A stretch of 48,302 nucleotides of DNA from Acidovorax sp. GW101-3H11. Lineage in GTDB: Bacteria; Pseudomonadota; Gammaproteobacteria; Burkholderiales; Burkholderiaceae_C. Positions 3,101 to 19,790 of this stretch are shown here, piece after piece. Below the pieces are notes generated by a model that was not told the DNA's origin, did not search any database, and saw nothing but the letters and a program-made list of their open reading frames with translations. Position 1 is the stretch's first letter. Each line of letters opens with the position of its first letter. The stretch covers positions 1 to 48,302 of the forward strand of contig NZ_LUKZ01000009.1 of assembly GCF_001633105.1 (NCBI RefSeq), read 5' to 3'. The position numbers and the translations under genes are program-made.

Positions 3101-5283
3101 GCTGCCTATGCGGCAGTGAACCTGTCCGCTACGATACCGGCGCCGGTATTCCTTTTCTGAGCTGCCTATGCGGCAGTGAACCCCGATATGTGAATATCGT
3201 GTCTGGCGTTGGTTTTCTGAGCTGCCTATGCGGCAGTGAACTCGCCGCCCCCGGTAACACTGGCTTTGCCTGCTTTCTGAGCTGCCTATGCGGCAGTGAA
3301 CCAGGCCCTGCCCCTTCGCTATGCCCTCCATGTTTTCTGAGCTGCCTATGCGGCAGTGAACTTTGACCCCCGGCTACTGCGTGTTGGCGTTGATTTCTGA
3401 GCTGCCTATGCGGCAGTGAACTCTGGCGGTGTCAGCCATTCGTCGTGCTTCATTTTCTGAGCTGCCTATGCGGCAGTGAACAGTACCAAAGACAACGCAT
3501 TCGGGTGCTTTCTTTTCTGAGCTGCCTATGCGGCAGTGAACCGAGACGCTGACGGCCGGGGCGCTCATCACCGTTTTCTGAGCTGCCTATGCGGCAGTGA
3601 ACGCTGCCATCGTGCAGGTACGTGCCTCTGCGACTTTCTGAGCTGCCTATGCGGCAGTGAACTGCAAATTTGTTCCATGGGCTTGTTTCGGTAATTTCTG
3701 AGCTGCCTATGCGGCAGTGAACCCGTCGCGGGTGGCGCGGTAGTTCGTGCGACCTTTCTGAGCTGCCTATGCGGCAGTGAACTTCACCATGAACCCGGCC
3801 CAGGCCCGGGAAATTTTCTGAGCTGCCTATGCGGCAGTGAACCTGCGCAGCCGACCGGCCACAGAATGGGGCGCTTTCTGAGCTGCCTATGCGGCAGTGA
3901 ACTCTGGCGGTGTCAGCCATTCGTCGTGCTTCATTTTCTGAGCTGCCTATGCGGCAGTGAACCCGTAATTGACGGTGCCCAGGCCGCCGATGAATTTCTG
4001 AGCTGCCTATGCGGCAGTGAACCCGCGTGTCTGCTGCGTGGGATGGAGTGGCCTTTTCTGAGCTGCCTATGCGGCAGTGAACCGCAGGTGCCCGGCCTGC
4101 TCAATGCCTATGGATTTCTGAGCTGCCTATGCGGCAGTGAACGCAAGGCACTGGGCCAGCAGCGCGCGTGCTTCTTTCTGAGCTGCCTATGCGGCAGTGA
4201 ACTTCACCTGCCGGTTATCGGTGTACGTGTTATTTTTCTGAGCTGCCTATGCGGCAGTGAACCCGGTTGTCGGTGTACGTGTTGTTTGTCGTCTTTTCTG
4301 AGCTGCCTATGCGGCAGTGAACCCGCCAGCCATCCGGCCACCTGTGCGCCGTCATTTTCTGAGCTGCCTATGCGGCAGTGAACCTGCCACCGGCTCCCAC
4401 ATCAGCCGAGGGGGTTTTCTGAGCTGCCTATGCGGCAGTGAACGGGGTGAACTGCTGCACCAACGGAACGCGGAATTTCTGAGCTGCCTATGCGGCAGTG
4501 AACCACATCAAAACCCGCGCCTGCTTTGAGCGTCTTTTCTGAGCTGCCTATGCGGCAGTGAACGGCGGGCGAGTACCAGCCCCAAAGGTCGAAATTTTCT
4601 GAGCTGCCTATGCGGCAGTGAACTGGCGGAGGGCGTTCTTCACCGTGTTCTGGTCTTTCTGAGCTGCCTATGCGGCAGTGAACGGCTTCACCCACCCCTC
4701 TCCCCCAGAGGGAATTTTCTGAGCTGCCTATGCGGCAGTGAACCTGTACCGCGTGCAGATGGAGCAGCAGTGCATTTTCTGAGCTGCCTATGCGGCAGTG
4801 AACGTGGCGCTGGCGGGGCGGGCGGCTCTGCATAGTTTCTGAGCTGCCTATGCGGCAGTGAACCTCTGAATCGGCCACGTCCTTCCGCGTTCCGTTTTCT
4901 GAGCTGCCTATGCGGCAGTGAACGCATCAACCAGAAGCCAGCGCTCCTGGTCATGTTTCTGAGCTGCCTATGCGGCAGTGAACCTGCCACCGGCTCCCAC
5001 ATCAGCCGAGGGGGTTTTCTGAGCTGCCTATGCGGCAGTGAACATCTCCTTCGGTTCAAACAATTCGCCTTCGGTTTTCTGAGCTGCCTATGCGGCAGTG
5101 AACGACGGCACCTACATCGATGCGGAGGGGCGCAATTTCTGAGCTGCCTATGCGGCAGTGAACAGCACCCAGGCCTCGCCCGTAAAGTTGGGCCATTTCT
5201 GAGCTGCCTATGCGGCAGTGAACTACCAGCCCCAAAGGTCAAAATGGTGCAGAGTTTTCTGAGCTGCCTATGCGGCAGTGAAC

Positions 5284-5306
5284 AAAAAGCCCGCGTGGTG
5301 CGGGCT
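5284..5306 (-). terminator. Spacer-encoded intrinsic terminator-like hairpin
   Basis: Read in the direction of array transcription, this spacer contains AGCCCGC-ACCAC-GCGGGCT followed by TTTT: a 7-bp perfect GC-rich stem, 5-nt loop and short U-tract. It lies about 87 spacers from the leader. It was probably captured from a phage terminator. It could reduce transcription into the older half of the array. Confidence 0.55.
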
Positions 5307-8300
5307 GTTGGGTTATTTCTGAGCTGCCTATGCGGCAGTGAACGAATTTAGTTTCTCCGCCCGGGTCGTTCGGGTTTTCTGAGCTGCCTATGCGGCAGTG
5401 AACCCTGTCTTGCCAGCCCAGTCGCCGATGAACTTTTTCTGAGCTGCCTATGCGGCAGTGAACGGTCGAACTGGCCAAGCGGTCGCAGGATCTCTTTTCT
5501 GAGCTGCCTATGCGGCAGTGAACCAGGCTCGGGTGGACGAGTGGCTGAAGGGGAGTTTCTGAGCTGCCTATGCGGCAGTGAACGTGGAAGCGCCGCGCAT
5601 TGCACGCAGAACAGCATTTCTGAGCTGCCTATGCGGCAGTGAACGTACGGCGCGTTGCTGGGTCACGTTGAGTTCTTTTCTGAGCTGCCTATGCGGCAGT
5701 GAACACTGTTGAACGCGGCCCGCTCGCCCGATGGGTTTTCTGAGCTGCCTATGCGGCAGTGAACGTGATGCGGATGAAGTCGCCCAGGTCGGCAAATTTC
5801 TGAGCTGCCTATGCGGCAGTGAACATCGTGTCGCGCGTGCATGTGCAATCGTGGCTTTTCTGAGCTGCCTATGCGGCAGTGAACTTCTTGGGCGATTTGA
5901 TCTCCTGGGGAGACACTTTCTGAGCTGCCTATGCGGCAGTGAACGCAAGCGGGGGTGCCTAGCGATTCGCAAGTTTTTTCTGAGCTGCCTATGCGGCAGT
6001 GAACCAGCACCATCCAACCAGGGGCGGATTCGTTCATTTCTGAGCTGCCTATGCGGCAGTGAACTTGTCAGCATCATCGGTCGCCGCGCAGACGACTTTC
6101 TGAGCTGCCTATGCGGCAGTGAACATCGGCGCTTTCAACCGCTCCGTGTCTCCAGATTTCTGAGCTGCCTATGCGGCAGTGAACGTTATTGACCGCTGGG
6201 AAACACCACTCTGGAATTTCTGAGCTGCCTATGCGGCAGTGAACGCGCGCATGGTTGGCGAGTCTCCTGCTGCTGTTTTCTGAGCTGCCTATGCGGCAGT
6301 GAACGCATGGAACTGCCGAGAACACCCGGCCACTTCTTTCTGAGCTGCCTATGCGGCAGTGAACGTTGGCTTGTGTTGCCGCATCAAGAGCGGGTCTTTC
6401 TGAGCTGCCTATGCGGCAGTGAACCGGCTGTGCCACCGCGCGAGTGGCGTACATCATTTCTGAGCTGCCTATGCGGCAGTGAACTTGTACGACTGCATGA
6501 CAGCACCAGGCAGCAATTTCTGAGCTGCCTATGCGGCAGTGAACTGCGTGAAGGCTTCTTCTAGCGTGCCGGTTGTTTTCTGAGCTGCCTATGCGGCAGT
6601 GAACCCAATGAGAACGGTTATCTCGGCCCAGTCTATTTTCTGAGCTGCCTATGCGGCAGTGAACCTGGACCGCGACCGCATCCGTGAAATCTTCATTTTC
6701 TGAGCTGCCTATGCGGCAGTGAACTCCCTCAACACCTGGTCGGCCTGGGTGTAGACTTTCTGAGCTGCCTATGCGGCAGTGAACTCATGGTGTTCCTCTC
6801 AAATCTGCATGGGCTTTTTCTGAGCTGCCTATGCGGCAGTGAACTTGGCCCGGAGGAATTCGGCGTAGTCAGTCATATTTCTGAGCTGCCTATGCGGCAG
6901 TGAACGGTGCTGGCCGCGATCAACGACTGATCGCCATTTTCTGAGCTGCCTATGCGGCAGTGAACCAATCGACCGCCCCGGATGGTTGGCCCCACTTTTT
7001 CTGAGCTGCCTATGCGGCAGTGAACTCACACCCCGAACCCCTGACGTGCTGTTTTTCTTTCTGAGCTGCCTATGCGGCAGTGAACGGAGTGTTGACTATG
7101 CCGATTGATCCACGCATTTTCTGAGCTGCCTATGCGGCAGTGAACAACGCCGGGGCCTTATTCAATCCGGCATCAAATTTCTGAGCTGCCTATGCGGCAG
7201 TGAACACTTCCGCATTCGCGCCACGGCATGGACCTCTGTTTCTGAGCTGCCTATGCGGCAGTGAACACGGCATCGGCTGCCAGCGCAGCCGCGTCCGATT
7301 TCTGAGCTGCCTATGCGGCAGTGAACTGCTCGCCTGCTCGACGCCGACCCGTACCAGTTTTCTGAGCTGCCTATGCGGCAGTGAACAATTACGTGGCGCG
7401 CAGCTACGACCGCACGGTTTTCTGAGCTGCCTATGCGGCAGTGAACGCGGTAGCCGTCGATGTTCTTGGCGACGTATTTTTTCTGAGCTGCCTATGCGGC
7501 AGTGAACAAGTGGCCTTCGCGCACCATCTGCTGCACGGTTTTCTGAGCTGCCTATGCGGCAGTGAACTGGGCATCATGCCCATCGCAGGGGTATTGATTT
7601 TTCTGAGCTGCCTATGCGGCAGTGAACGCAAGGCACTGGGCCAGCAGCGCGCGTGCTTTTTTCTGAGCTGCCTATGCGGCAGTGAACCGGGTATGTCAGC
7701 GTTATCCATGGGGATCATCTTTCTGAGCTGCCTATGCGGCAGTGAACGAATACCGACACACACAGCAGCACGACAGCAATTTCTGAGCTGCCTATGCGGC
7801 AGTGAACGTACTGCCGTCGGTTCATTTCTCGCCCCCTTTTTTCTGAGCTGCCTATGCGGCAGTGAACGCGATTTCTCGGGCGCTGGGGTGGCCCAGGTCT
7901 TTCTGAGCTGCCTATGCGGCAGTGAACACCACGGTCGATGAACCACTGGGCCTCTTGCATTTTCTGAGCTGCCTATGCGGCAGTGAACTTCGTGCTGATC
8001 CACAACGTCAGCAGGTGCTTTTTCTGAGCTGCCTATGCGGCAGTGAACGCAGGCGATCAAAACGCTGCAGGCCGAGCAGGTTTCTGAGCTGCCTATGCGG
8101 CAGTGAACACCGCGAGCACCAGCAAACCCGCACTTACTTTTTTCTGAGCTGCCTATGCGGCAGTGAACGCAGCAATCACCGGAGGCGAGGTGCCGCACTT
8201 TTTCTGAGCTGCCTATGCGGCAGTGAACGGCGAGGAACTTCTCGTAGTCCGGGTTGATGATTTCTGAGCTGCCTATGCGGCAGTGAACATTGAGGCCGAC

Positions 8301-10213
8301 CACCTCAACATCACGGTGAATTTCTGAGCTGCCTATGCGGCAGTGAACGAGCCAGGCGCGAACGTGTGCGCGAGACAGCATTTCTGAGCTGCCTATGCGG
8401 CAGTGAACCTTGTGGTCTTCGTTCGGCGGCTTCTTGATGTTTTCTGAGCTGCCTATGCGGCAGTGAACGCCGTCTTGCCAAGCAGCTCCAGCTCGTTCGT
8501 TTTCTGAGCTGCCTATGCGGCAGTGAACGATGCGACCGAGGCGCAAGCGCAGCAGGTTCTTTTCTGAGCTGCCTATGCGGCAGTGAACAGACGCTGTTGC
8601 GATCTACGAGCGCGACTTCTTTTCTGAGCTGCCTATGCGGCAGTGAACTACAGCAATGGCGGCCAATTCAGCCGCCAGAATTTCTGAGCTGCCTATGCGG
8701 CAGTGAACGTCGAAGCCGCCCACGGCATCAAAGGAAAGGATTTCTGAGCTGCCTATGCGGCAGTGAACTTGTATTGGCGCTCAAGATCAGCGCGGGCGAA
8801 TTTCTGAGCTGCCTATGCGGCAGTGAACGTTCCCAGTTCGGTCCTGCATGCGCCGCACCATTTCTGAGCTGCCTATGCGGCAGTGAACGACGAGTTGAAG
8901 GCGACGATGATGTCGCTTCATTTCTGAGCTGCCTATGCGGCAGTGAACATCATCTTCGACGTGAACAGCTACGGGGGTGATTTCTGAGCTGCCTATGCGG
9001 CAGTGAACTCGCGTGCGGTGCGAACATCGTTGGCGTAGTTTTTCTGAGCTGCCTATGCGGCAGTGAACGGCCAGGTGAAGGAGGCTGGGGAGAAGGCGCT
9101 TTTCTGAGCTGCCTATGCGGCAGTGAACGATACGGCCGCCAGGCTGAGGCCGGAGGTGGATTTCTGAGCTGCCTATGCGGCAGTGAACCCCAGCTCCCGC
9201 GCGGTGGCGGGCATGAACTGGTTTCTGAGCTGCCTATGCGGCAGTGAACATCCCAGGTCCTACCCTCCGCCAGCGCGCGCTTTTCTGAGCTGCCTATGCG
9301 GCAGTGAACTCAATGAACTACGCATGCACCCTGATCGCCGTTTTCTGAGCTGCCTATGCGGCAGTGAACGCACCACACGCGGCCATGCCATGGATGGCTC
9401 ATTTCTGAGCTGCCTATGCGGCAGTGAACACCTTCTGGTGTTGACATGTATATCACCGAATTTTCTGAGCTGCCTATGCGGCAGTGAACGAGGAAAAACC
9501 CATGCTGTTCTCCGGGAGGATTTTCTGAGCTGCCTATGCGGCAGTGAACTCCGACCAGCCATCAGGCGCCCAGGATGGCTTTTTCTGAGCTGCCTATGCG
9601 GCAGTGAACCGGGTTCCAGTCGCCGAACGACAATGGGTGCGTTTTCTGAGCTGCCTATGCGGCAGTGAACGGCCAGGTGGTGCAGGCGGCAGATGGATCG
9701 ATTTTCTGAGCTGCCTATGCGGCAGTGAACCTCGCGAATTGTCGATAGAACTGGCGCTCGACTTTCTGAGCTGCCTATGCGGCAGTGAACGATTCAGGAC
9801 ACGTTTGATGGCCTGAAGACCAATTTCTGAGCTGCCTATGCGGCAGTGAACACTCGCTACGGCGAACAGGCCGGGCCGCGCCCTTTCTGAGCTGCCTATG
9901 CGGCAGTGAACGCAGCAAGAAGCTGCGCGGCCTTGCCTGGATCTTTCTGAGCTGCCTATGCGGCAGTGAACGCCATCAGCCCGACCGGCCAGTATTACCT
10001 CAACTTTCTGAGCTGCCTATGCGGCAGTGAACAGGGTAGGCGCCCGCCTGGGTGATGAAGCGATTTTTCTGAGCTGCCTATGCGGCAGTGAACAGAGCGC
10101 GCACGCCCTGAAATCACCCACACATTTTCTGAGCTGCCTATGCGGCAGTGAACGGCTGACACCGCCAGAGATCCTGCGACCGCTTTTTCTGAGCTGCCTA
10201 TGCGGCAGTGAAC

Positions 10214-10235
10214 GAAAAAAGCCCCGCGATGCGGG
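10214..10235 (-). terminator. Spacer-encoded intrinsic terminator-like hairpin, fifth spacer from leader
   Basis: On the minus strand the spacer reads CCCGC-ATC-GCGGG, then GC and TTTTTT. The 5-bp GC stem with a six-U tract resembles a Rho-independent terminator in the direction of pre-crRNA synthesis, less than 300 nt from the leader. The stem is short, so its efficiency is uncertain. Confidence 0.45.
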
Positions 10236-10530
10236 TGCAGGTGCTTTTCTGAGCTGCCTATGCGGCAGTGAACGCGTGGTCATGGCCTATGCCATGCGCG
10301 TGGCTTTTCTGAGCTGCCTATGCGGCAGTGAACTTCGATGACCGCCGTCACGGTGTCTGCCGCGCTTTTCTGAGCTGCCTATGCGGCAGTGAACGTGCCG
10401 GTGGCGCAGGCTTGGCCGCTGGCGCTTTTCTGAGCTGCCTATGCGGCAGTGAACATGGCCGCCGCGCCCCAGACAAAACCGTTCATTTTCTGAGCTGCCT
10501 ATGCGGCAGTGAACTAGAACTCTAGCCTCC

Positions 10531-10654: not shown

Positions 10655-11230
10655 TTAAAACCAGGGCACGGTCGCTTCGTGCCCCAGACCATAGGCGTTG
10701 AAGGCTCCCGCCACCGCCTGCTGCTGCAGCGGGCCGTGCTCCACGCACAGGCAAAACGGCTGGCCCGTGCTGCTGCTGCGCAGTTGCACAAACGGCAGGT
10801 CGGGGCGGCGCTCCACCGTGTCAGGGATGGCGGCTGCGGCCTGCTCGGTGGTTTCGCCCTTGCGCTGTATGCGGCGGCGGCGCAGCCGGTCTACGTTGGT
10901 CTTGAACTGGCGGCGGCGCACGGTGCGATGCTGTGCGTTGGCGGGCACTGGCAGCAGCTCGCCCGCCTGCGTGTGGTCGCGCATGCCTTTGAGCCAGTCT
11001 TGCCCCGTCAGGCGTTGCAGTGCTTCGGGTGTGCCGTGCAGGCGCAGCACCGCGCCCAAGGTGCGCTTTGTCAGCGGCTGGCTAACGTGCTGCGGGTAGC
11101 TCACGCCAATGTCGGTGATCTGCCCCAGCACCAGCGCGCGGTGCAGCTTGGCCACCAGCGCGCCCAGCAGGTGCGCGTGGCTGAACTCCGGATCGGGCAG
11201 CAGGGTGATGTCGATGTAGTGCGTGGTCAT
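10655..11230 (-). CDS. cas6f: Cas6f (Csy4), pre-crRNA endoribonuclease
   Basis: Cas6f cuts the repeat at the 3' base of its stem-loop and stays bound to the crRNA 3' hairpin as the head of the Csy complex. The ATG at 11230 gives 191 residues, starting MTTHYIDITLLPDPEF as in the Csy4 family; an upstream extension to 11272 has no family support. His30 in AKLHRALV corresponds to the catalytic His29 of the Pseudomonas enzyme. The Arg-rich helix RRRQFKTNVDRLRRRRIQRK is the RNA-groove-binding element, and the C-terminus VPWF is family-typical. It is the last gene of the csy operon, 13 bp after the csy3 stop, and the array leader follows directly. Confidence 0.95.
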   Translation of the reverse strand: MTTHYIDITLLPDPEFSHAHLLGALVAKLHRALVLGQITDIGVSYPQHVSQPLTKRTLGAVLRLHGTPEALQRLTGQDWLKGMRDHTQAGELLPVPANAQHRTVRRRQFKTNVDRLRRRRIQRKGETTEQAAAAIPDTVERRPDLPFVQLRSSSTGQPFCLCVEHGPLQQQAVAGAFNAYGLGHEATVPWF

Positions 11231-11243
11231 GGGGCCTCGCGCA

Positions 11244-12269
11244 TCAGCTGGCGTCGCCAAACACGCCGCCACGGATCAGCACCGCCATCACAAAGTGCTG
11301 CTGCTCCAAGGGCGGCACCTGGTCTTTCAGCAGCCAGTTGTCCAGCAGGGTATAAAAGTCCAGCTTTTGCTTGGGCTGGCGGTAGGCCTTGCCTTGGGTG
11401 GTGACAGAGCCGTAGGGCTCCACCGCGATGGGGCCCAGTTCGTCGGCGCCTTCGTACCAGGTGTCGATGGTGCGGATGGCGTTGCCGATCTTTTGCGAGT
11501 GGATGGCGGCCACGCCGTCCACGTGGTACAGCGTTTTGCTTTTGCCTGCGCTGCCTTTGTCCAGGATCAGCTCTTGCGATGGAAACACCTCTTGCCCCGC
11601 ACCCTGGCGCACAAAGGCCGTCACGCGCAGCAGCACATGCTGTGACCCGGCCAACCCGGCGGCAATGGCCTGGCCCAGCTCGTTCAAGCCTTTTGTTTCT
11701 GTATTGATAGCGCCTACCGCCCGTGTATTGAGCGCCAGGGCATCAAAAGACCATGTATTTGCGGCCTGCCCGTTTTGCATCTGCTCCACAGTTACCGCTA
11801 CTTGCTCGGCCCCTGCGCGGTTGCGCCACAAGAAGCGGCCATTGGCCAGGTTGGCCGCGTAGCGCCGGGCCAGTTCGCCAAAGCCGTGCTGCTGCACATA
11901 GCCTTGCACCGTCGCCAGCAGCTTGGCTTGGTAGGCCGCGCTGTTGCAGGCCGATGGTGTGCCCGCGCCGCCCAGCACGCGCAGCGTGAACTGCACTTTG
12001 AGTGTGTCGGCTTCTGCGGGCAGGGCGGACACGTCCACCGTTTGCAGGTTGGGGTTCTCGATGGCGGCGTCCAGCTTGGCGGGGTCTTGGTCTTTGGCCT
12101 TGAGGCGATTGCTGATGGTGCCGCGCACAGATTTTTCGCGGACAGTGACGGGCTGCCAAGCGTGTGATTGAGCGCGGTCGTCCCAGCGGCCGGCGTGGAA
12201 CACGGCGTCGGATGGGTCCAGCTTGCGTTCAAAGGCCAGGACGGAGGCGGTGGTGAGTTTTTCGGTCAC
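11244..12269 (-). CDS. csy3: Cas7f (Csy3), Cascade backbone subunit
   Basis: Csy3 polymerises along the crRNA spacer, normally six copies per 32-nt guide, and flips out every sixth base. The protein has 341 residues, the usual Csy3 length, and begins [20 protein letters not shown]. The start is GTG, preceded by GAGAG about 10 bp upstream. It sits between csy2 and cas6f with short gaps, in one operon. Residues coded by 11691-11750 fall in a copy of the dispersed palindromic repeat seen elsewhere in the window, an in-frame insertion or co-opted segment. No catalytic residues are expected. Confidence 0.95.
11691..11750 (+). repeat. Dispersed palindromic repeat copy inside csy3
   Basis: GTATTGATAGCGCCTACCGC followed by a GAGCGCCAGGGCATCAAAAG segment resembles the other copies in this window (see rbsA, cas2-3, cca). 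It is read through in frame by csy3. Confidence 0.4.
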
Positions 12270-12325: not shown

Positions 12326-13414
12326 TCAGGTGTATGCATAGGCCTCGTCGTCGTCCCATTCGTCCAGCGTGTCGATGGTGGGGTGGCCGTCTGCGCCAGC
12401 GTCTTCCGCCTTGGCGGGTTGGTAGCCATTGCGGCAGCGGTACAGGCCCCGCTCTGCGTTGGCTTCGGCATGCCACAGCAACTGGCCCAGGTGCGTCAGG
12501 CGGTGCGGGCTGATCCACTCGCCCAGCGCATAGACCGATTCCACAAACCGCATGGGCACCGTGGCATCGCGTGCATTGCGCACGGTGCCTGGGGCGTGCG
12601 TGGGCGTGAGCGCGGCATAGCCCACCGGAATGGGCACCACCCAGCCGCTGCCTTTGGGCCGCCGTGGGTCGGCCCATGGCACCTGTCCGTCCGGCGCAGG
12701 CACGCCACTGTCGGGCAACACAGGCGCGTAGTTGAAGCGGGCTGCGTGCAGCAAAGCGTCCAGCAGCGTGGCGTCGGGCTGCGTGGTACGCAGGTCCTGC
12801 AGGCGTTGGGCCAGAAGGTCTTCACGCCCCACCAGGGCAAAGCCCGGCAGCCACTGCCGCCGCCATTGGCGAAACTCCTTCTCTGCCGCCACAGGGTCTT
12901 CGGGCACGACGGCCATCCAGGGCCGCACGCGCTTGCCCGGCACCGGGCGCGATGGCAGCAGGCTGCCGCCCGCCACGCGCATGCCCGCCAGGATGTGGCC
13001 TGCTTTCGCAGCCCATTCGTCCAGCTGTGCCTGGTTGCCTTGCACCAGCGCCGCCGGGGTGCCGGGCGTGCGCCTTTCTGACACGGCCAGCACCAGCGTG
13101 ATCTGCAGGTGCATGCGGCCTTCTTCGACGATGGCGGCGGTGCTGCCGTCTTTGTCCACCGGGTTGCGCGTGAGGTTGAAGTTGCGCACATAGCCCTGCG
13201 TGACCTGCTCTTGATGGTGGTGACACACCACACCCACACCGTGTAGTTGCAGCGGTACGCCCGCCTGGGCGAGTTTGCGCTCTAGTGCCCACATCACACC
13301 CGTAAAGGCCGTGATGGACGGGAAGCCGTGCGTGAGTGGGCTGGCAATCGCGTTGGCGTTCTGAATGCGCAGGTGGGGCAGTACGAGGATGGCTTGGGGT
13401 TGCTCCGGGCTCAT
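12326..13414 (-). CDS. csy2: Cas5f (Csy2), crRNA 5'-handle binding subunit
   Basis: Csy2 pairs with Csy1 at the Cascade tail and holds the 8-nt crRNA 5' handle. The 362-residue protein starts MSPEQPQAILVLPHLRIQNA and continues with the NAIASPLTHGFPS motif typical of Csy2 (RAMP-like fold). Its ATG overlaps the csy1 stop as ATGA at 13411-13414, indicating translational coupling. The end near 12326 leaves a 57-bp gap to csy3 that carries the csy3 ribosome-binding site. The length is slightly above the family average; no frameshift is seen. Confidence 0.95.
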   Translation of the reverse strand: MSPEQPQAILVLPHLRIQNANAIASPLTHGFPSITAFTGVMWALERKLAQAGVPLQLHGVGVVCHHHQEQVTQGYVRNFNLTRNPVDKDGSTAAIVEEGRMHLQITLVLAVSERRTPGTPAALVQGNQAQLDEWAAKAGHILAGMRVAGGSLLPSRPVPGKRVRPWMAVVPEDPVAAEKEFRQWRRQWLPGFALVGREDLLAQRLQDLRTTQPDATLLDALLHAARFNYAPVLPDSGVPAPDGQVPWADPRRPKGSGWVVPIPVGYAALTPTHAPGTVRNARDATVPMRFVESVYALGEWISPHRLTHLGQLLWHAEANAERGLYRCRNGYQPAKAEDAGADGHPTIDTLDEWDDDEAYAYT

Positions 13415-14817
13415 GGGTTCTCCTCCCGCAGTGCCAACGGTTCCGCATGTGTTTTGCGAATGGGGATGTAGTGCGGCGTACCCAGCTTGTCGCGCAATTC
13501 GCGCAACTGCTGCTTGAATCCATCGTCGTCAGTCAGAAACACCTTCTTCCACTCGCGTGCTTCGGCATCACCCATTGGCAGCTTGCCGCGCAGTTGCGCG
13601 TTGAGCCAGTTGCCGAACGCTTTGCCGATGGCTGCCGGCCAATCCGTGTACTGCCAGTCATGTGCAAACTGTGCCTCTTCGGGTATCTCTGCGCGCAGAG
13701 GGTCCAGCCAAAGCGCCTCTTCGTAGATCAGCTCTTTAAAGCGCTCGTCATCCCGGCTCCAGCCTGGTGGCAGGATCTGTTGCAACTCGGCAGCCAGCGA
13801 TACCAGCTCGTCCACCAGCGCGTCGAGCAGTTCCTCGCGCCGCTCACGGGTGGCCAGTTTGGCATCGGGGTCGGACTCCAAAAACACCCGCAGCGCCCGC
13901 ACGGTACGGCGCACCTCGGGCCGGGCAATGAACAGTCGGTCAAACACCGAAGTGGCATGCACCGGCAGCCGCACCGCACTGGCCTTCCACTGCGGTGGCA
14001 GCGATGACAGCAGGTAGTTCACGCCCCGGCGCTCGCTGTTGAGCTGGCTGATGTTCTGCGGCTTGGTGCCGCCCATGTTCTGCACGGCCAGGCCGGGGTA
14101 GTCGTGGAACACGCCGTCATGCATCTTGCGCTCGCGCCGCGCTTGGCGGGCGGCCTTGTTGGTCTCGCCAAAGCGGTCTTCCTGCAGCTGGGCATGCACC
14201 GCATGCGCCAGTGATGTGGCGTACAGCGGGGCCAGCAGGGTGTAGTGTGCGTCGTCGCAGGCATCACTTCCCGTGAGCCAGTAGAGCTGCTTGGCCAGCG
14301 TGTGACTGCTGGGGCCTTCAGCGCGGGGCTGGGTGAGGGACACAAAGGCATCGCGCAGCGCCTGCGCTTGTGCCTGGTCTGCATGCAGGGCAGCCAGCGC
14401 GTCCGCATCGTGCGCCAGCAGGGCAGCGAGCAAGCTGCGGCCGCTCACTTCGAGCTTGAGCAGCTTGTACACATCCAGCGCAGCAGCGTTCCCCACTACG
14501 TCGCCCACAAAGCGCTCACCCAATGCGTGGCTGCCCAGCTCGGCCAGCGAGGGCAGGGTGCGGGGCTCCACATAAAAATTGGTGCCCCGCGCATCGGGGT
14601 GAATGGGTTTGAGGGAGTGGGTGACGGCCTGGATTTGTTCCACGCGCTTGGCAGCGTTGGCTAGCCATACATCATGGGCGAACGAGGCAATAACCTCGTC
14701 GCGTTGAGGATCGTCAGGCTTGAGCTTGTCGAGTTTGGCTTGCAGCCGCTCTTGCAAGAAGGCGCTGATAGCCGCTCGGTAGCCCGCCTTGCCACCTGTT
14801 GCAGGGGCTTCAGACAT
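13411..14817 (-). CDS. csy1: Cas8f (Csy1), Cascade large subunit
   Basis: Csy1 is the I-F large subunit that recognises the CC PAM and helps hold the 5' handle. The protein has 468 residues (MSEAPATGGKAGYRAAISAF...), a little longer than typical Csy1. It contains the family segments FLQERLQAKLDKL near the N-terminus and NISQLNSERRGVNYLLSSLP in the middle. The ATG at 14817 has AAAGG about 8 bp upstream. It is the first gene of the csy1-csy2-csy3-cas6f block. The 369 bp upstream hold the mini-CRISPR and small-ORF module, so its transcription probably depends on that region. Confidence 0.95.
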   Translation of the reverse strand: MSEAPATGGKAGYRAAISAFLQERLQAKLDKLKPDDPQRDEVIASFAHDVWLANAAKRVEQIQAVTHSLKPIHPDARGTNFYVEPRTLPSLAELGSHALGERFVGDVVGNAAALDVYKLLKLEVSGRSLLAALLAHDADALAALHADQAQAQALRDAFVSLTQPRAEGPSSHTLAKQLYWLTGSDACDDAHYTLLAPLYATSLAHAVHAQLQEDRFGETNKAARQARRERKMHDGVFHDYPGLAVQNMGGTKPQNISQLNSERRGVNYLLSSLPPQWKASAVRLPVHATSVFDRLFIARPEVRRTVRALRVFLESDPDAKLATRERREELLDALVDELVSLAAELQQILPPGWSRDDERFKELIYEEALWLDPLRAEIPEEAQFAHDWQYTDWPAAIGKAFGNWLNAQLRGKLPMGDAEAREWKKVFLTDDDGFKQQLRELRDKLGTPHYIPIRKTHAEPLALREENP

Positions 14818-14847: not shown

Positions 14848-14883
14848 AAAATTCCCCGGTCAGCACAGAACCAACCGGGGAAT
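14848..14883 (-). terminator. Hairpin with T-tract between the small ORF and csy1
   Basis: On the minus strand ATTCCCCGGT and ACCGGGGAAT form a perfect 10-bp stem around a 13-nt loop, followed by TTT. It lies 30 bp before the csy1 ATG. It could end the short creT-like transcript or act as an attenuator controlling read-through into csy1. The T-tract is short and the loop large, so partial termination is likelier than full. Confidence 0.55.
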
Positions 14884-14902
14884 GGGTGTGGACGGCAAAC
14901 CG

Positions 14903-14938
14903 TCACAGGACTAATAAGATCATGTGGTTGTAATGCAC
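14903..14938 (-). CDS. CreT-like micro-ORF (11 codons, tandem TTA), candidate RNA toxin
   Basis: A GTG-started frame encodes MHYNHMILLVL and stops with TGA. Upstream lies an unusually strong doubled Shine-Dalgarno: AAGGAGG (14949-14943) four bases before the GTG, and AGGAG a few bases further. Codons 8 and 9 are TTA-TTA, expected to be among the rarest codons in such a GC-rich genome. CreT toxins of CreTA modules are tiny ORFs with strong SD sites that trap rare tRNAs through tandem rare codons, so this is a candidate working by sequestering tRNA-Leu(UAA). It is followed by GACGG-TTTG-CCGTC and a terminator-like hairpin. A TTG-started frame two bases upstream is an alternative. Function is inferred from architecture only. 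Confidence 0.5.
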   Translation of the reverse strand: MHYNHMILLVL

Positions 14939-14982
14939 AACGCCTCCTTTCTCCTGGTGCCTGCCCGGCACGTTGCTGAATC

Positions 14983-15020
14983 AACCGTGGTGCAAGTACC
15001 AGTTGCACCACGGTTTTTTT
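14983..15020. other. Perfect 13-bp stem-loop upstream of the micro-ORF
   Basis: AACCGTGGTGCAA (14983-14995) pairs with TTGCACCACGGTT (15003-15015) around a 7-nt loop. On the plus strand it is followed by a T-run to 15020 and would be a textbook terminator. On the minus strand it falls near the predicted start of the transcript from the -35 at 15045-15040 and would form a protective 5' hairpin on the creT-like RNA. Both roles are possible. Confidence 0.7.
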
Positions 15021-15037
15021 CGTTGCTTGAAATTGAA

Positions 15038-15064
15038 CCAGTCAACTTGAAAATTTTGACGTAG
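15038..15064 (+). promoter_or_regulatory. Target site of the mini-CRISPR RNA over a promoter -35
   Basis: The PAM CC (15038-15039) is followed by AGTCAACTTGAAAATTTTG. Against the mini-CRISPR spacer (from 15141: AGTCAGCTAGACAATTTGG) positions 1-5, 7-8, 10-11, 13-17 and 19 match; 6, 9, 12 and 18 do not. Positions 22, 23 and 25 also match; 24 does not. On the minus strand the site contains TTGACT (15045-15040), a near-consensus -35 pointing to the micro-ORF and csy1. The matching -10 is weak (CGAAAA, spacing 17), so the promoter itself is less certain than the target match. Confidence 0.8.
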
Positions 15065-15101
15065 TAAAAGGGGGCGATGTTGGCCAATGATAAGAGCAGC
15101 G

Positions 15102-15110
15102 TGCTATCTT
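15102..15110 (+). promoter_or_regulatory. Extended -10 promoter of the mini-CRISPR RNA
   Basis: TG-C-TATCTT is an extended -10 element (TGn plus a 4/6 match to TATAAT). TTGGCC at 15080-15085 is a poor -35 at 19-bp spacing. The predicted start, about seven bases downstream, falls at or just inside the first degenerate repeat, as needed for a short crRNA-like transcript. Confidence 0.55.
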
Positions 15111-15112
15111 TG

Positions 15113-15193
15113 CAACACCTGCTGAAAAGCAGCTCAGAAAAGTCAGCTAGACAATTTGGCTGTCGATCCACTGCCGCATAGGCAGCTCAGGCT
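15113..15193 (+). ncRNA. creA: Degenerate mini-CRISPR (CreA/CreR-like crRNA-like RNA)
   Basis: Two I-F repeat relatives flank one short spacer, in crRNA orientation on the plus strand. Repeat 1 (15113-15140) is degenerate but keeps GCAGCTCAGAAA at its 3' end, so the 8-nt handle CTCAGAAA is exact. Its stem is CTGCT-GAAA-AGCAG. Repeat 2 keeps 22 bases identical to the array repeat (15169-15190), including CTGCC-GCATA-GGCAG and the Cas6f cut site. The spacer is about 25 nt (15141-15165), shorter than the array's 32. Repeat 2 overlaps the cas2-3 stop codon on the other strand (15187-15189). The module is separate from the main array. A role in guiding the Csy complex to the promoter at 15038-15064 is inferred. 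Confidence 0.8.
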
Positions 15194-18100
15194 TTCTTGC
15201 TAAAGCCCAAGCGCTCATCCCACCGCCAGCCCGCCTGCGATTCAGGCAGGCTGGCGGTGGCATAGCGTTCTGCGCAGTGCTCCAGCGACAAACCCTGCGC
15301 TTGCGCCAGTGCAGTCAGTTCTTCCATCAAGCCCACCTGCGGCCAGGGCGATACGCTGGGTGATGCCAGTTGCGCTGCGGGCACGGGGTGGCACAGGCTT
15401 TGGTGGATGGGTACATAGAGCTTTTCGTAGCGCCGTTCTCCGTCTTGTACGCGGTGCAGCAACAGCGTTTCTGCCTCTTCGTCCGGCAGCAGGGCCACGT
15501 CGTCGCGTTTCTGATCGTCCTGGCGAAAGCGCTGGAACTGCGGCAGCAGGCCGGTCAGCCACAGCTGACTGTGGTGTGCCCAATGCAGGAAGGCAGCGCG
15601 CTCTGGGGCGGTGGTGTATTTGCTGGCTGCAGAGCGTTGCAACATGGCATCTCGCATGCGCTCGTGCTCCAGGTCGGCCCAATGGCGGCGGGGGTGGTAT
15701 TGCGCGGTGGCTACCTCAATGCGCGGTTGGGCATCCACCGCCCACGGCTCGGCGTCCTTGACCAATCGAGCTATCAGCTGGCGCAGGCTATGGCTGTGCA
15801 GGTAGAAGTTCTGTGAAGCGTCGCTCGACCCCGGCGGTTGCGGGTCCATTTCAAAGCCGGGTTTGCAAAACGCCGCTTTGCTCTTGTCTTTGAAGTGCCG
15901 CAGATTGCTGTCCAGCACCACCATGTTCACCCCACCCACAGCCCCAGGCCGGTGCCGGCGCACGCGCCCGGCCAGTTGGATGAGCGAGCGCATGGACGAG
16001 GGCTCGACTACGGCCCAGTCGTAGTCGTGGTCGCGGCCCACTTCGGTCACGGGACTGCCCAGCACGATGAACAGGTGGTGGGGCTCGGGGTGGGCGTCGA
16101 TCAGGGAGCGCAGGGCGGGGCGTTGTAGCGCTGGGTCGTGATCGTCTTTGGCTCCCCGGCGGTTGAGCAGGGTGTCCAGTTGCTGTTCGATGGCCGAGCG
16201 CAGCAGCAGGGGGAACTGCGAGTGGTACACGCACAGGTGGATGCGGACCTGGCCTTGCAGTTCTGGCGGCAGTGCGTCTGGCGCGTACATGGCCAGGGCC
16301 ACGTCGTACAGCGGGGCAATGTTGGCCATGCGGATGAGGCCCAGGCTCACGCGTTTGTCACTTTTGTCGGTGCTGTGGTTGTGGGGCTGCCGGTGAAGCT
16401 GCCACGCTTGCGCCAGTACCAAGCGGGCAAAGTCTTTGCGGCGCTCTGCTTCTTGCATGCCCTGCCAGGTGTCGGGCAGGGGCGCAATCTGCGCCAGCCG
16501 CCGCACCTCGGCCTGCTTCAGCTTGGCGACTCGCTTGTGTACGTACTGGCTGTGCGCTTCGCGGAAGGCGGCTGGGTCCGCACAGTCTTGCGTGGTCTGG
16601 TGGAATTCGTCGATCCACAGGCAGCAGATGTTCACAGGCTCGCTGGGCCGTTCGCTGCGGTGGCGCTGGTACACGGTTCGCCCGGCGCGGTAGGCCAGAA
16701 AGAGCCCTTCCACCAGCGCGGGCGGCAGCGTGGCCGATGACAACAGCACGCGGCTGCCCAGCAGGCCCGCCCAGTGCACCAGGCGGGTGAGGGCGGGCAG
16801 GTCGGCCATGTCAAAGTCGTCGGGCTCGTCCAGCACCAAGTCGCTGGTCAGAAGGCGCAGCATGGGCGCGATCTGGCGGCCACCGCGCAGGCTTTCGGTG
16901 GCGGGAGTGAGGTGGTCTACGGTGCACACCAGCAGGGGCGCGGCGATCAACGCGCGGGCCTTGACGTCATCGGTCAGGCGCTGCAGCAGCGGATGCTGGT
17001 CGTTGCCTTCGTAGAGCACGGTGCCCGCTTCATCCAGCAGCGACTGGCTGGATGCGGAGCCGGTGGCTTCGGCCTGTTGTTCCCAGTATTCAAACAACGC
17101 TCGGCTGGCCGCGCCACCGACCTGAATGGCCAGTTGCTCGTCATTCAACTGCAGGTCGTTCTGGAAGACGCGCCCAGTCTGCAACGTGAGCGTGCGCAGC
17201 CCCATGGCAAAGGCGCAGCGCATGCCGGTGGCAGGGTCAGCCAGTGCATTCATCACCCGGGCGTTACCCAATGTTTTGCCGCAGCCTGTGGAGGCCATGT
17301 TGACGATGAACGCGCCTTGCTGCGCTGTGCGGGTGCGCACGCTGGTGGCCAGGTCTGCAGCCTTGTCTTGCCAGGCAAAGCGTGGGTCAGCACTGCGTTT
17401 TTTGAGGGGCTTGTGGTTCTTGAGTGCGGGCAGGCTGTGCGTGAGGCTGGGCAGGGAGCGTGCGACCAGCGTGGCATGGGCCTGTACGCCCAGCAGGTGT
17501 TCATCCAGGGTTTGGATGAAAAGTGGGCTCTGGTGCTTGTCTATCAAGCGCGGGTAGCTATCGTTTTGATAGTGATTGCTGCGCGTGTTGGCGTACAGGG
17601 GGTAGTCTTCATTGAGATACTGCGCCCGCGCGGCTTTGTCTGTGACGCTGGAGTAGTGGTGATCGGCCAGCATGAGGCACAGGCGCGCGACGTGCATGGC
17701 AAACGGGTCGTGCAACACCGGTCCTTGGCCAGGGGCTTTCAATAGTTCCTGTAGCTTGCGTGCGTAGCGGGCGGCCTGTTTGCGCCAGGCGAGGGTGGTA
17801 ACAGGGAGCCCATGCGGGAAGCACCAGTGGGCTTGTTTGGTCTCTGTGTTGGCCTGCTCGCGCGGCTCGTTCCAGTCGGCGTTGATGCGCTGAAGCACAT
17901 CGTCCAGGGCGTTGGTGTTGACAAAGCTTGGGCGGGCGCCAAAGCGGCGGTAGGTGCGCCTGCTTTCCTCCATGTCCTCTGCATCAACGCCTTGTGCTTG
18001 TTCAACCGGCAGGCATGGCAGGCGGTGGTGGGTGAATACCAGCCATGCAACCGCTTGAGCCAGCGGCGGTAAGCGGGCGAACGGCAAGCGTTGCGAGGCT

Positions 18101-18720
18101 TGGGGCTCATCGATCCCATCGCGCAGCAGCCGACCACCGGCGTGGTCAAGCCACAACGCCTCAAACGTCTGCGCATCCGCATCCGCGTCTGCACAGGCCG
18201 CAAGCCGTTGCAGCCAGCCGGCATCGTCTTCCTGCTCCACAAACGCCTGAAACAGCCGCACTGACACCCATTCGTGTCGGTAGTGGTTGCGCTCGCGCAG
18301 GCCAGGGTTCTTGAGCTTGTCTTGAAATGCCTGTGTGGCTTTGCCCAGGTCGTGCAGCAGGGCCGCCAGCGCGGCCAGGGCGGTCATCAGTGGCAGGTGG
18401 TGCCAGGCGTTTTCATCGCCCGCGCGCAACACGTTGCTGGCCGTGGTGTTGGTGGGCACGGCCCCCTGGTCGTTGAATTGGTTGGCGTCACCTACCACCC
18501 ACAGCAGTTCGCTGTGGTCACGCCCGCGAATCCAGTGGCAGGCCACGGCGGTGTTCTTGCGCGCCGTCTGGCGCAGCAGCCTGCGCACGGTGTCCAGGCC
18601 TGCCTGGGTGATGGGCGTTTGCCAGGTGCGCTCGCCGCGCCGCTCAGCAAACTGGTCGAGGATGCGGCGGGTCTCCACCAGCGCTCGCTTGTTGCACTGG
18701 GCAATGAAGAGCACGTTCAT
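15187..18720 (-). CDS. cas3: Cas2-3 fusion (Cas3f), nuclease-helicase and acquisition subunit
   Basis: The 1177-residue protein joins a Cas2 domain (about residues 1-95, MNVLFIAQCNKRALVETRRI) to an HD nuclease and a superfamily 2 helicase, the fusion that defines type I-F. HD motif: LLHDLGKATQAF. Helicase: Walker A STGCGKT, DEPDDFD as the Walker B-like motif, SSATLP as motif III, and QLAGRVRRHRPG as motif VI. It degrades DNA marked by Cascade and acts with Cas1 in spacer integration. The ATG at 18720 overlaps the cas1 stop (ATGA). The stop codon lies inside repeat 2 of the mini-CRISPR. Part of the region between the HD and helicase motifs is coded by a dispersed-repeat copy (17505-17576). Confidence 0.96.
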   Translation of the reverse strand: MNVLFIAQCNKRALVETRRILDQFAERRGERTWQTPITQAGLDTVRRLLRQTARKNTAVACHWIRGRDHSELLWVVGDANQFNDQGAVPTNTTASNVLRAGDENAWHHLPLMTALAALAALLHDLGKATQAFQDKLKNPGLRERNHYRHEWVSVRLFQAFVEQEDDAGWLQRLAACADADADAQTFEALWLDHAGGRLLRDGIDEPQASQRLPFARLPPLAQAVAWLVFTHHRLPCLPVEQAQGVDAEDMEESRRTYRRFGARPSFVNTNALDDVLQRINADWNEPREQANTETKQAHWCFPHGLPVTTLAWRKQAARYARKLQELLKAPGQGPVLHDPFAMHVARLCLMLADHHYSSVTDKAARAQYLNEDYPLYANTRSNHYQNDSYPRLIDKHQSPLFIQTLDEHLLGVQAHATLVARSLPSLTHSLPALKNHKPLKKRSADPRFAWQDKAADLATSVRTRTAQQGAFIVNMASTGCGKTLGNARVMNALADPATGMRCAFAMGLRTLTLQTGRVFQNDLQLNDEQLAIQVGGAASRALFEYWEQQAEATGSASSQSLLDEAGTVLYEGNDQHPLLQRLTDDVKARALIAAPLLVCTVDHLTPATESLRGGRQIAPMLRLLTSDLVLDEPDDFDMADLPALTRLVHWAGLLGSRVLLSSATLPPALVEGLFLAYRAGRTVYQRHRSERPSEPVNICCLWIDEFHQTTQDCADPAAFREAHSQYVHKRVAKLKQAEVRRLAQIAPLPDTWQGMQEAERRKDFARLVLAQAWQLHRQPHNHSTDKSDKRVSLGLIRMANIAPLYDVALAMYAPDALPPELQGQVRIHLCVYHSQFPLLLRSAIEQQLDTLLNRRGAKDDHDPALQRPALRSLIDAHPEPHHLFIVLGSPVTEVGRDHDYDWAVVEPSSMRSLIQLAGRVRRHRPGAVGGVNMVVLDSNLRHFKDKSKAAFCKPGFEMDPQPPGSSDASQNFYLHSHSLRQLIARLVKDAEPWAVDAQPRIEVATAQYHPRRHWADLEHERMRDAMLQRSAASKYTTAPERAAFLHWAHHSQLWLTGLLPQFQRFRQDDQKRDDVALLPDEEAETLLLHRVQDGERRYEKLYVPIHQSLCHPVPAAQLASPSVSPWPQVGLMEELTALAQAQGLSLEHCAERYATASLPESQAGWRWDERLGFSKKA
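17505..17576 (-). repeat. Dispersed palindromic repeat copy inside cas2-3
   Basis: The minus strand reads ACTATCAAAACGATAGCT, then CGCGCTTGATAGACAAGC and a TTTTCATCCAAACCCTGG tail. This parallels the rbsA copy (GCTAT...ATAGCTGCTTGCGCTTG...TTCAAATTCTGG). The reading frame is kept. Confidence 0.55.
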
Positions 18721-19706
18721 GGTGCGGGGCGGGCCGTGGCGTGTTGCGCGGTGGTGATGGCGATGAGCTTGAGGGTATCGATCATGAAATCCAGCGAGTC
18801 GCTTTGCGTCAATGTGTCGATGCAACGCCGACGAAACTGTTGTTCATCGTCGCCTTGCATGGCCGACAGAAATGCCTGGGGCAAGATCGCTGCGTCCTTC
18901 ACCAGATCCGCCGCATCAAACACCAGGCCACCCCTTCGTGTTTTGCCATGCAGCACAGCCAAGCCGTGCGGCAAGCCCAATACCCAGGTGGCTGTGGCGC
19001 CGAGGCCGTAGGCCAGGTAATTGCCGTGGTCCAAAAAGCGGTTGGCGGCGTCCGTGCCGCTGCCACGCTTGGCCCGCGTGAATTCACCGTACTGAGTGGC
19101 ATCGACCGCTAGCTTGAAAAGTGCTTTGGTGAGCTGTGCTTCGTCCGTGAGCAGGGCAGTCACATCGGGAGCCGTAGCAATGCGTTGTGTGAATTGCCCT
19201 ATCAGCGCCTCCAGGCGCGGTGCGTCAACCGCAAAGCCTGCCTCCCGCAGGGGGCGCTGTAGCCATTGTTCCCGCAAGCGTTGCAAGCGCGCGGTCTGTA
19301 AGGCCTTGGCTGCCATCAGGCGCAGATCGTCGTCAAACCAAAACTTGACCCAGGCCTGCAGATACTCTGTGGGTCGATATTCCGATTGGGGTGCGAACCA
19401 CGCGACCTCGATATCCACCTCGTTGGCGCTGAAAAGTGGCGTACCGCCACCACCCGCGAAACCCACCAGCACGCCAGCCTTGGCCAGCTCGCGCATGGCC
19501 GCCTGGGTGATAGATGTGCCCGTGCCCAGCAGGATGCTGGTGGTGTTGGCGATGGGGATGTTCCAGTAAAGGCTGCGCTTACCCGTGTCGGTGACATACT
19601 CTACGCGGCCACCGTTGACCAAGACCCGGCAATGCTCCAGGTAGTAAAGGTTGGCCCGCTTGGAGTGCAGGATGGTTTTTAGGTCGGAGGATGCAATGGA
19701 TTCCAT
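18717..19706 (-). CDS. cas1: Cas1 (type I-F), spacer integrase
   Basis: Cas1 integrates new spacers at the leader-repeat junction as a complex with Cas2-3. The family-typical start region SSDLKTILHSKRANLYYLEH is near the N-terminus. Metal-binding residues are visible in context: Glu in DATQYGEFTRAK, His in GLPHGLAVLHGKT and Asp in VFDAADLVKDA. The ATG at 19706 gives 329 residues; a GTG at 19736 would add ten without an obvious SD for either. It is the first gene of the cas block, 85 bp beyond the stop of the aldolase-like gene upstream on the same strand. A small palindrome, CTGAG-CGTA-CTCAG (19770-19783), lies in that gap. Confidence 0.95.
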   Translation of the reverse strand: MESIASSDLKTILHSKRANLYYLEHCRVLVNGGRVEYVTDTGKRSLYWNIPIANTTSILLGTGTSITQAAMRELAKAGVLVGFAGGGGTPLFSANEVDIEVAWFAPQSEYRPTEYLQAWVKFWFDDDLRLMAAKALQTARLQRLREQWLQRPLREAGFAVDAPRLEALIGQFTQRIATAPDVTALLTDEAQLTKALFKLAVDATQYGEFTRAKRGSGTDAANRFLDHGNYLAYGLGATATWVLGLPHGLAVLHGKTRRGGLVFDAADLVKDAAILPQAFLSAMQGDDEQQFRRRCIDTLTQSDSLDFMIDTLKLIAITTAQHATARPAP

Positions 19707-19790
19707 GGCATCAGTTTTGACCAAAACAATGTGCACATCACGGAATATTTGGCCGAACCGTGCCCAGTCTGAGCGTACTCAGTCGATCAC

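Follow-up and report, generated by a model that had tools for sequence, protein, structure and literature searches.

A predicted CreTA module, in which a toxin-like micro-ORF (creT) would be guarded by a CRISPR-derived guide RNA (creA), lies between cas2/3 and csy1 of a type I-F CRISPR-Cas locus in Acidovorax sp. GW101-3H11—within a 48,302-nucleotide stretch of DNA, analysed as a whole, that we call the window. Judging from the sequence, we are confident that the module belongs to the CreTA class. We also regard as probable the fuller reading, according to which creT would be silenced by the Csy complex, guided by the mini-CRISPR spacer psiS to positions 15040-15064, and the toxin would likely act via the scarce tRNA-Leu(UAA). 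The gene order of the locus is cas1, cas2/3, csy1, csy2, csy3 and csy4/cas6f, followed by the array, with all genes on the minus strand:

18717..19736, minus strand, cas1 (Pfam PF01867)
15187..18825, minus strand, cas2/3 of type I-F (Pfam PF21384, PF22590, PF21802 and PF18019)
13411..14817, minus strand, csy1 (cas8f; Pfam PF09611)
12326..13414, minus strand, csy2 (Pfam PF09614)
11244..12269, minus strand, csy3 (cas7f; Pfam PF09615)
10655..11272, minus strand, csy4 (cas6f; Pfam PF09618)
213..10514 (ends approximate), minus strand, main CRISPR array of 171 repeats (22-base core of the repeat)

The cas2/3-csy1 gap measures 369 bp, in line with the gap of about 400 bp that characterizes type I-F CreTA loci, and Rfam returned CRISPR repeats alone for the window among the 150 of 173 matches listed. 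This intergenic region is present in 2 of the 47 genus genomes searched, own genome counted, with the second copy at 86% identity; among named Csy1 proteins, the one from Acidovorax benzenivorans comes closest (92%). Read from cas2/3 towards csy1, the gap contains the following elements:

15166..15193, plus strand, psiR2, a repeat with stem CTGCC/GGCAG that overlaps the end of cas2/3
15141..15165, plus strand, psiS (creA), a 25-nt guide, AGTCAGCTAGACAATTTGGCTGTCG
15113..15140, plus strand, psiR1, a degenerate repeat with the Cas6f-type stem CTGCT/AGCAG intact and 5' handle CTCAGAAA
15102..15110, plus strand, predicted extended -10 of creA, TGCTATCTT, touching the creT -35 (putative role)
15087..15115, minus strand, predicted promoter-like site of creT, TTGCAA-17-TATCAT (consensus match)
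15040..15064, plus strand, protospacer of psiS, pairing at 18 of its 25 positions
15038..15039, plus strand, PAM CC
14983..15015, minus strand, leader hairpin of 13 bp
14957..14971, minus strand, small leader hairpin GTGCC/GGCAC
14943..14950, minus strand, Shine-Dalgarno sequence AAAGGAGG
14903..14938, minus strand, creT micro-ORF, GTG CAT TAC AAC CAC ATG ATC TTA TTA GTC CTG TGA
14912..14917, minus strand, tandem TTA TTA, codons 8-9
14891..14904, minus strand, hairpin immediately 3' of the stop codon, GACGG-TTTG-CCGTC
14851..14883, minus strand, terminator-like 14-bp hairpin with a short T run, ahead of csy1

This anatomy is that of a type I-F CreTA: two degenerate repeats that preserve the Csy4-type hairpin, a guide with a partial match to a neighbouring CC-flanked site and, downstream of that target, a mini-ORF of 11 codons plus stop that is divergent from creA and preceded by a Shine-Dalgarno sequence, with its start 101 nt from the PAM. 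Direct alignment of psiS with the protospacer gives pairs at positions 1-5, 7, 8, 10, 11, 13-17, 19, 22, 23 and 25 and mismatches at 6, 9, 12, 18, 20, 21 and 24—to the base, the list of paired and unpaired positions that an earlier note on this DNA had given together with the PAM CC. When multiples of six are left out, 18 of 21 positions match, and the runner-up among 8,476 CC-anchored sites in the window reaches 14 of 21. Equally good matches under the CC constraint, the occurrence of which in shuffled sequence would have counted against the note, were absent: no dinucleotide-shuffled version of psiS reached 18 within the intergenic region (0/5000) or across the whole window (0/400; best 16). 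Against the other CC sites in 302 kb of its own genome (57,089 sites), psiS attained a maximum of 14, as did the first 25 nt of the 170 array spacers against the intergenic region.

The pairing was then compared across Csy1 relatives—34 loci from public genome contigs, with matches in 43 of 399 genomes at the family level and in 20 of 399 at the order level (own genome included in both), as well as 16 plasmid records, 4 of them taken in. Of the 99 loci L001-L099, 41 had a guide according to the guide finder, duplicates counted, and 34 of these guides are distinct by psiS; the finder missed at least L005, L007, L021, L044 and L047, which are readable by eye and stand outside the position counts. 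The 34 guides are not all independent, as near relatives such as L012/L013 are among them, and one (L024) has its target on the opposite strand. In the Csy complex, Csy3 turns one crRNA base in six out of the duplex. Bases under no constraint would match in one quarter of cases. Across the 34 distinct guides, positions 6, 12 and 18 were matched in 22 of 102 cases, approximately the chance level (8/34, 9/34 and 5/34, respectively), and the remaining positions up to 17 in 471 of 510. Positions 1-5 were matched in all 34 guides, positions 7-11 and 13-16 in 29 to 33 of them and position 17 in 23. Since the first choice of targets had required CC and disregarded multiples of six, the comparison was repeated without PAM rule or weighting; CC still preceded 33 of the 34 best sites, and positions 6 and 12 were matched in 8/34 and 9/34. 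Cognate guides scored 11-15 of 15, with 31 of 34 at 13 or above, a level attained by 12 of 1122 guides exchanged between loci and by none of 1020 shuffled guides.

A later class-level search, with matches in 32 of 369 genomes (own included), yielded 29 new loci that served as a fresh test. The best site followed CC for all 8 guides reported, with position 6 matched in 1/8, position 12 in 1/8 and the remaining positions up to 17 (15 per guide) in 112 of 120 cases; the finder missed L195, which carries a variant handle, and the match of L217 was weak (12/17, runner-up 11). The full Cas6f-type stem of psiR1 was found in 31 of the 34 guides, allowing a loop of 3-6 nt, with 8 different 5' arms among these 31. 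Taken together, the 34 distinct relative pairs lend strong support to the proposals that the guide directs binding to 15040-15064 and that its every-sixth mismatches reflect flipped bases, both made in the earlier note. The same comparison bears on the alternative of an ordinary mini-array, acquired in the usual way, with a spacer that is similar to the promoter region only by coincidence. The closeness of psiR2 to the array repeat (22 identical bases) would speak for such an origin, but none of 5000 shuffles equalled the match, and the same layout recurs with different guide and target sequences in the 34 distinct guides; the shuffles and the cross-locus comparison rule out a chance match, leaving this alternative vanishingly improbable. 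Every-sixth-base neutrality would be the trace that crRNA base flipping has left in evolution, and it offers a simple search rule for such guides: CC, positions 1-17 paired, 6 and 12 free.

Two further observations concern the guides themselves. Guide lengths (L001-L099 and L189-L217) fall mostly around 18-21, 25-27 or 30-33 nt, which is what 6-nt Cas7f steps predict; a strict rule of L = 6N-4 (classes 18-21, 25-27 and 30-32) was clean in the 34 guides and broken by L201 (24 nt) and L206 (29 nt), and with 2 of 8 later guides breaking it, we treat the regularity as a tendency only. In the cas3-csy1 gaps of L012 and L013, one guide faces two similar targets (18 and 17 of 22 positions in L012; 17 and 16 in L013). 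The available text of PMC7296934 describes how Cas7f1 binds the spacer in 6-nt increments in type I-F1.

All promoters discussed here are consensus matches. The predicted creT site (TTGCAA-17-TATCAT) has counterparts in L032 (TTGCAA-17-TATGAT), L036 (TTGCAA-17-TACCAT) and L005 (TTGCAA-17-TAACAT). Five loci were checked for the 14-mer TGCTATCTTTGCAA (window 15102-15115, at the psiR1 edge), which is common to the window, L032, L005 and L036. This 14-mer would combine the extended -10 of creA with the -35 of creT, so the two promoters may be mutually exclusive. The hexamer TTGACT (15040-15045, minus strand), proposed in the earlier note as the -35 directed to the micro-ORF and csy1, does lie inside the target; as a working -35 of the window it is not supported, because the hexamers 16-18 nt on (ACGAAA, CGAAAA and GAAAAA) provide no -10, and a better minus-strand site lies upstream at 15115-15087. 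A matching -10 accompanies TTGACT in three relatives only (L034, L035 and L045). A plus-strand promoter-like sequence, TTGAAA-16-GAAAAT (window 15027-15054), also overlaps the target and would be directed towards creA.

According to the CreTA reading, the two-repeat mini-CRISPR beside cas2/3 would yield an RNA with a 25-nt guide that likely recruits the Csy complex of type I-F to the partial match next to CC at 15040-15064, where the bound complex would likely block transcription of creT. The every-sixth guide bases are taken as non-contributing to binding; with these bases neutral and pairing across relatives strong only to about position 17, the complex would be expected to stay bound and Cas2/3 not to be called in. 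Binding without cleavage, as predicted here, fits by analogy the truncation results for type I-F1—where, in the accessible portion of PMC7296934, a spacer 6 nt shorter entails the loss of plasmid interference, complexes shortened by up to 18 nt can still be purified and in-cell binding drops stepwise as the spacer shortens. In the window, psiS has 25 nt versus 32 nt for most of the array (148 of 170 spacers). Were the csy genes broken or blocked, creT would be transcribed, and its strong Shine-Dalgarno sequence, leader hairpin and UUA-UUA codons would then be expected to sequester tRNA-Leu(UAA), which is in short supply; if the toxin reading is true, a cell without its CRISPR system would likely stop growing. 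The earlier note had placed the micro-ORF and csy1 together behind the repressed promoter, and its interpretation is supported in part. An ORF with the type I-F CreT layout comes first below the target; repression aimed simply at csy1 is probably not the case. Nothing but a terminator-like hairpin that ends in few Ts separates creT from csy1, the next gene, so the csy operon may be held down by the same repression.

The codon content of creT points to the likely nature of the toxin. TTA is the rarest sense codon in a sample of 177 ORFs (85,694 codons) from the own genome, at 0.55 per 1000 and 0.55% of leucine codons; TTA, AGA, AGG and ATA combined amount to 0.8% of the same codons. A scan of the own-genome tRNA loci (47 matches) gave one tRNA-Leu(UAA) and one tRNA-Arg(UCU) gene. 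Consecutive minor codons (TTA TTA) behind a strong Shine-Dalgarno sequence (AAAGGAGG) and a GTG start are features of a tRNA-sequestering CreT, as are stem-loops 3' of the mini-ORF (here GACGG-TTTG-CCGTC and the 14-bp hairpin). Twenty-two loci, Acinetobacter LoGeW2-3 included, gave 20 distinct creT-like ORFs, counted where they lie about 95-160 nt before csy1. An adjacent pair from the set TTA/AGA/AGG/ATA occurs in 19 of these 20, at codons 8-9 in 17 of the 19. TTA TTA is carried by the window, L032, L035, L012/L013 and L069 (codons 7-8), and the other versions are AGA AGA, AGA AGG, AGG AGA, AGA TTA (L017) and ATA AGA (L023). The ORF of L032, a close relative of the window's locus from the environmental strain Acidovorax benzenivorans D2M1, shares GTG, CAC and TTA TTA with the window and is changed at codons 2, 3, 6, 7 and 11. 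L020 (AGA AGT) and L189 (TCA ATA) are without a pair from the four-codon set. Several choices define these counts: for L017, L023 and L070, each with two in-frame starts, the 9-14 codon version was chosen with the rare codons partly known beforehand; the 20-33 codon ORFs above the target in L006, L007, L042 and L046 (AGG AGA at codons 4-5) were left uncounted; and the later ORFs of L195 (AGA AGA, codons 6-7) and L189 (codons 8-9) stand outside the 20. In the later set, the mechanically found ORFs of L196 and L197 were without a rare pair. Of the earlier loci, L014 and L024 have guide and gap but no creT-type ORF.

A change from AGA to TTA requires two base changes per codon; that rarity persists through such swaps while identity does not suggests selection for codons that are rare. 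In a Csy1 tree built by a quick method from 56 loci, with states labelled by hand, the TTA/AGA/mixed codon state changed at least 6 times and the toxin versus guide-only state at least 10 times. In L035/L066, the creT ORF and post-stop hairpin of the gap are identical to those of the window, but the promoter is different, the guide has 18 nt and the Csy1 belongs to another part of the tree, which suggests that the creT module has been exchanged between loci. Because L035 lies outside the window's clade, such exchange may add to the change counts on the tree.

Structure in the predicted CreT RNA is likewise conserved. The leader hairpin recurs in many relatives with stems of different sequence, and in nine aligned sequences 10 of its 13 pairs are changed on both sides. 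With the structure derived from the window sequence, 91.6% of cells in three helices are paired, a share that falls to 28 to 46% when the structure is slid, and the predicted CreT RNA stretch has a folding z of -4.6. The leader hairpin beats all 40 shuffles in 19 of 22 loci (exceptions L035, L069 and L070), and the post-stop hairpin is found in 15 of 22, being absent under the rule used from L003, L005, L036, L012, L013, L015 and L017.

The closest known counterparts are the type I-F CreTA systems of Acinetobacter (WCHA45, LoGeW2-3 and ANC3789), which, in the available text of PMC10097628, share with the window the cas3-csy1 gap, two degenerate repeats, a CC-flanked partial target and, below it, a divergent mini-ORF led by a Shine-Dalgarno sequence; in WCHA45, a 20-nt psiS with 17 pairs represses creT. 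Beyond host—betaproteobacterial here, Acinetobacter there—the systems differ in the length of psiS, with 25 nt in the window versus 20 nt in WCHA45 (same portion of PMC10097628) and, by the rule used here, 31 nt in LoGeW2-3. The LoGeW2-3 ORF (ATG TTT AGC ACA CAT TTA GTT AGA AGG GTC TAG; 10 codons) has AGA AGG at codons 8-9 where the window has TTA TTA. In the accessible part of that paper, synonymous changes at codons 2, 3 and 5 abolish the toxicity of WCHA45 CreT; the explanation given for that toxicity is a hairpin at the start codon together with a loop that can pair with 23S rRNA, and not rare codons. With AGA AGG present in LoGeW2-3 as well, rare-codon conservation by itself is no proof of mechanism.

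A CreTA whose toxin is of the WCHA45 type, targeting ribosomal RNA through its start-codon hairpin and loop, with the rare codons incidental, has to be weighed. In 15 of the 20 distinct ORFs, pairing between codon 5 and the start codon is feasible with G-U allowed (GUG-CAC in the window), and codon 3 is AGC, as in LoGeW2-3, in 9 of the 20. The window itself departs from this pattern, judged against the LoGeW2-3 loop: in place of a 5-bp start-codon stem with loop nt 5-9 pairing to 23S rRNA, it has a stem of 4 bp (U-1/A16, G1/C15, U2/A14, G3/C13) with positions 4/12 unpaired as C/C, and its nt 5-9 read AUUAC and not the UUAGC loop read in the LoGeW2-3 ORF, the full loop being absent from the portion of PMC10097628 at hand. 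The rare pair is also somewhat more conserved (19/20 versus 15/20), and we consider a WCHA45-type toxin unlikely. Codon usage gives a mixed picture. TTA is the rarer codon in several AGA-using hosts (small codon samples), and L035 has AGA at 0.92 versus TTA at 3.06 per 1000 in a sample of 3,270 codons, though its ORF reads TTA TTA; the usage of G163, with few codons of odd composition, was left out. In view of the WCHA45 results, the start-codon pairing, these codon-usage exceptions and L020/L189, we favour action through tRNA-Leu(UAA) by a slight degree, at a level of confidence well below that placed in the CreTA assignment. Precedents for the tRNA reading come from archaea, where CreT toxins tie up tRNA through AGA-AGA in H. 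hispanica and AUA-AUA in H. hubeiense (available portion of PMC8501985). The haloarchaeal CreT described there resembles the window's in that its ORF is short, starts translation strongly, has two minor codons in succession and is followed by a stem-loop; it differs in that the window module is type I-F, bacterial and built on the leucine codon UUA; no sequence homology is claimed.

A different view would make the guide a CreR-type regulator through which Csy restrains its own csy1-csy4 operon, with the micro-ORF as a leader peptide or mere mRNA leader. CreR regulators of this sort are reported for type I and V-A systems (available text of PMC12737573), and a scan gave no minus-strand promoter-like site from the target to csy1. 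Guide-only relatives share with CreR a crRNA-like guide in the cas locus aimed at the nearby cas promoter region; in 13 of 14 such loci the PAM lies 17-67 nt ahead of csy1 with no creT-type ORF below, these distances resting on approximate csy1 starts, so that the exception, L008, may reflect start assignment. The 14 leave out L014 (138 nt, gap without ORF), L024, L057, L061 and L065 (256-375 nt, longer small ORF) and the toxin-locus copies L001, L033 and L066. The window differs from CreR, which targets the cas promoter and generally has no toxin gene, in that a toxin-like ORF separates target and csy1. Moreover, 22 toxin-class loci have the micro-ORF together with its Shine-Dalgarno sequence and leader hairpin, the rare pair occurring in other versions as well, and a terminator-like 14-bp hairpin stands between micro-ORF and csy1. 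Pure autorepression therefore appears distinctly unlikely for the window, although autorepression and toxin guarding may be united in one module, because csy1 follows creT. The guide-only loci are arranged as would be expected of CreR, so that among close relatives some guides guard a toxin and others merely face csy1—a mixture that makes addiction (CreTA) versus autorepression (CreR) testable in close relatives.

The CreTA reading carries I-F CreTA, studied in Acinetobacter, to varied betaproteobacterial and other loci and predicts a CreT built on a leucine codon. Work by Shmakov et al. in 2023 reportedly covers CRISPR-derived mini-arrays with partial matches to cas-locus promoters, I-F1 included, and may already mention parts of this picture. 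Searches of the open literature, at the level of main texts, brought up no CreT based on UUA or leucine, and a search of the literature on minigenes gave nothing; a type I-E CreT is described in the accessible text of PMC12055562 for Citrobacter rodentium. A broader model, which we hold to be evenly balanced, would treat the rare codons as an exchangeable warhead: the toxin scaffold would have been retargeted several times among tRNA-Arg(UCU), tRNA-Leu(UAA) and tRNA-Ile, toxin-plus-guide would have been repeatedly traded for guide-only autorepression, and the every-sixth neutral positions would record flipped crRNA bases. The relatives provide a natural codon-swap series for direct tests of tRNA sequestration.

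Other gene content also occurs in the cas3-csy1 gap. In L042, a reverse-oriented HTH_3/HigB-like protein toxin-antitoxin pair (Pfam; 6161-6496 and 6527-6808, minus strand) sits beside a guide-only mini-CRISPR. DNA similar to this pair was seen by eye in L006, L007, L008, L018, L044, L046, L047 and L050, and a partial likeness beside the creT ORF in L034 and L045. In the Enterobacterales loci L052, L057, L060, L061, L064 and L065, an ORF of ~45-60 codons replaces the 10-codon ORF (by eye); the L052 peptide had no match in Pfam, and this small ORF may encode a protein toxin controlled by a similar guide. Finally, L184 (Vitreoscilla filiformis pVF1) has a VapC-family toxin and an XRE regulator annotated upstream of csy1, and L025, with the same csy1 coordinates as L184, has an AGA AGA micro-ORF upstream of csy1.
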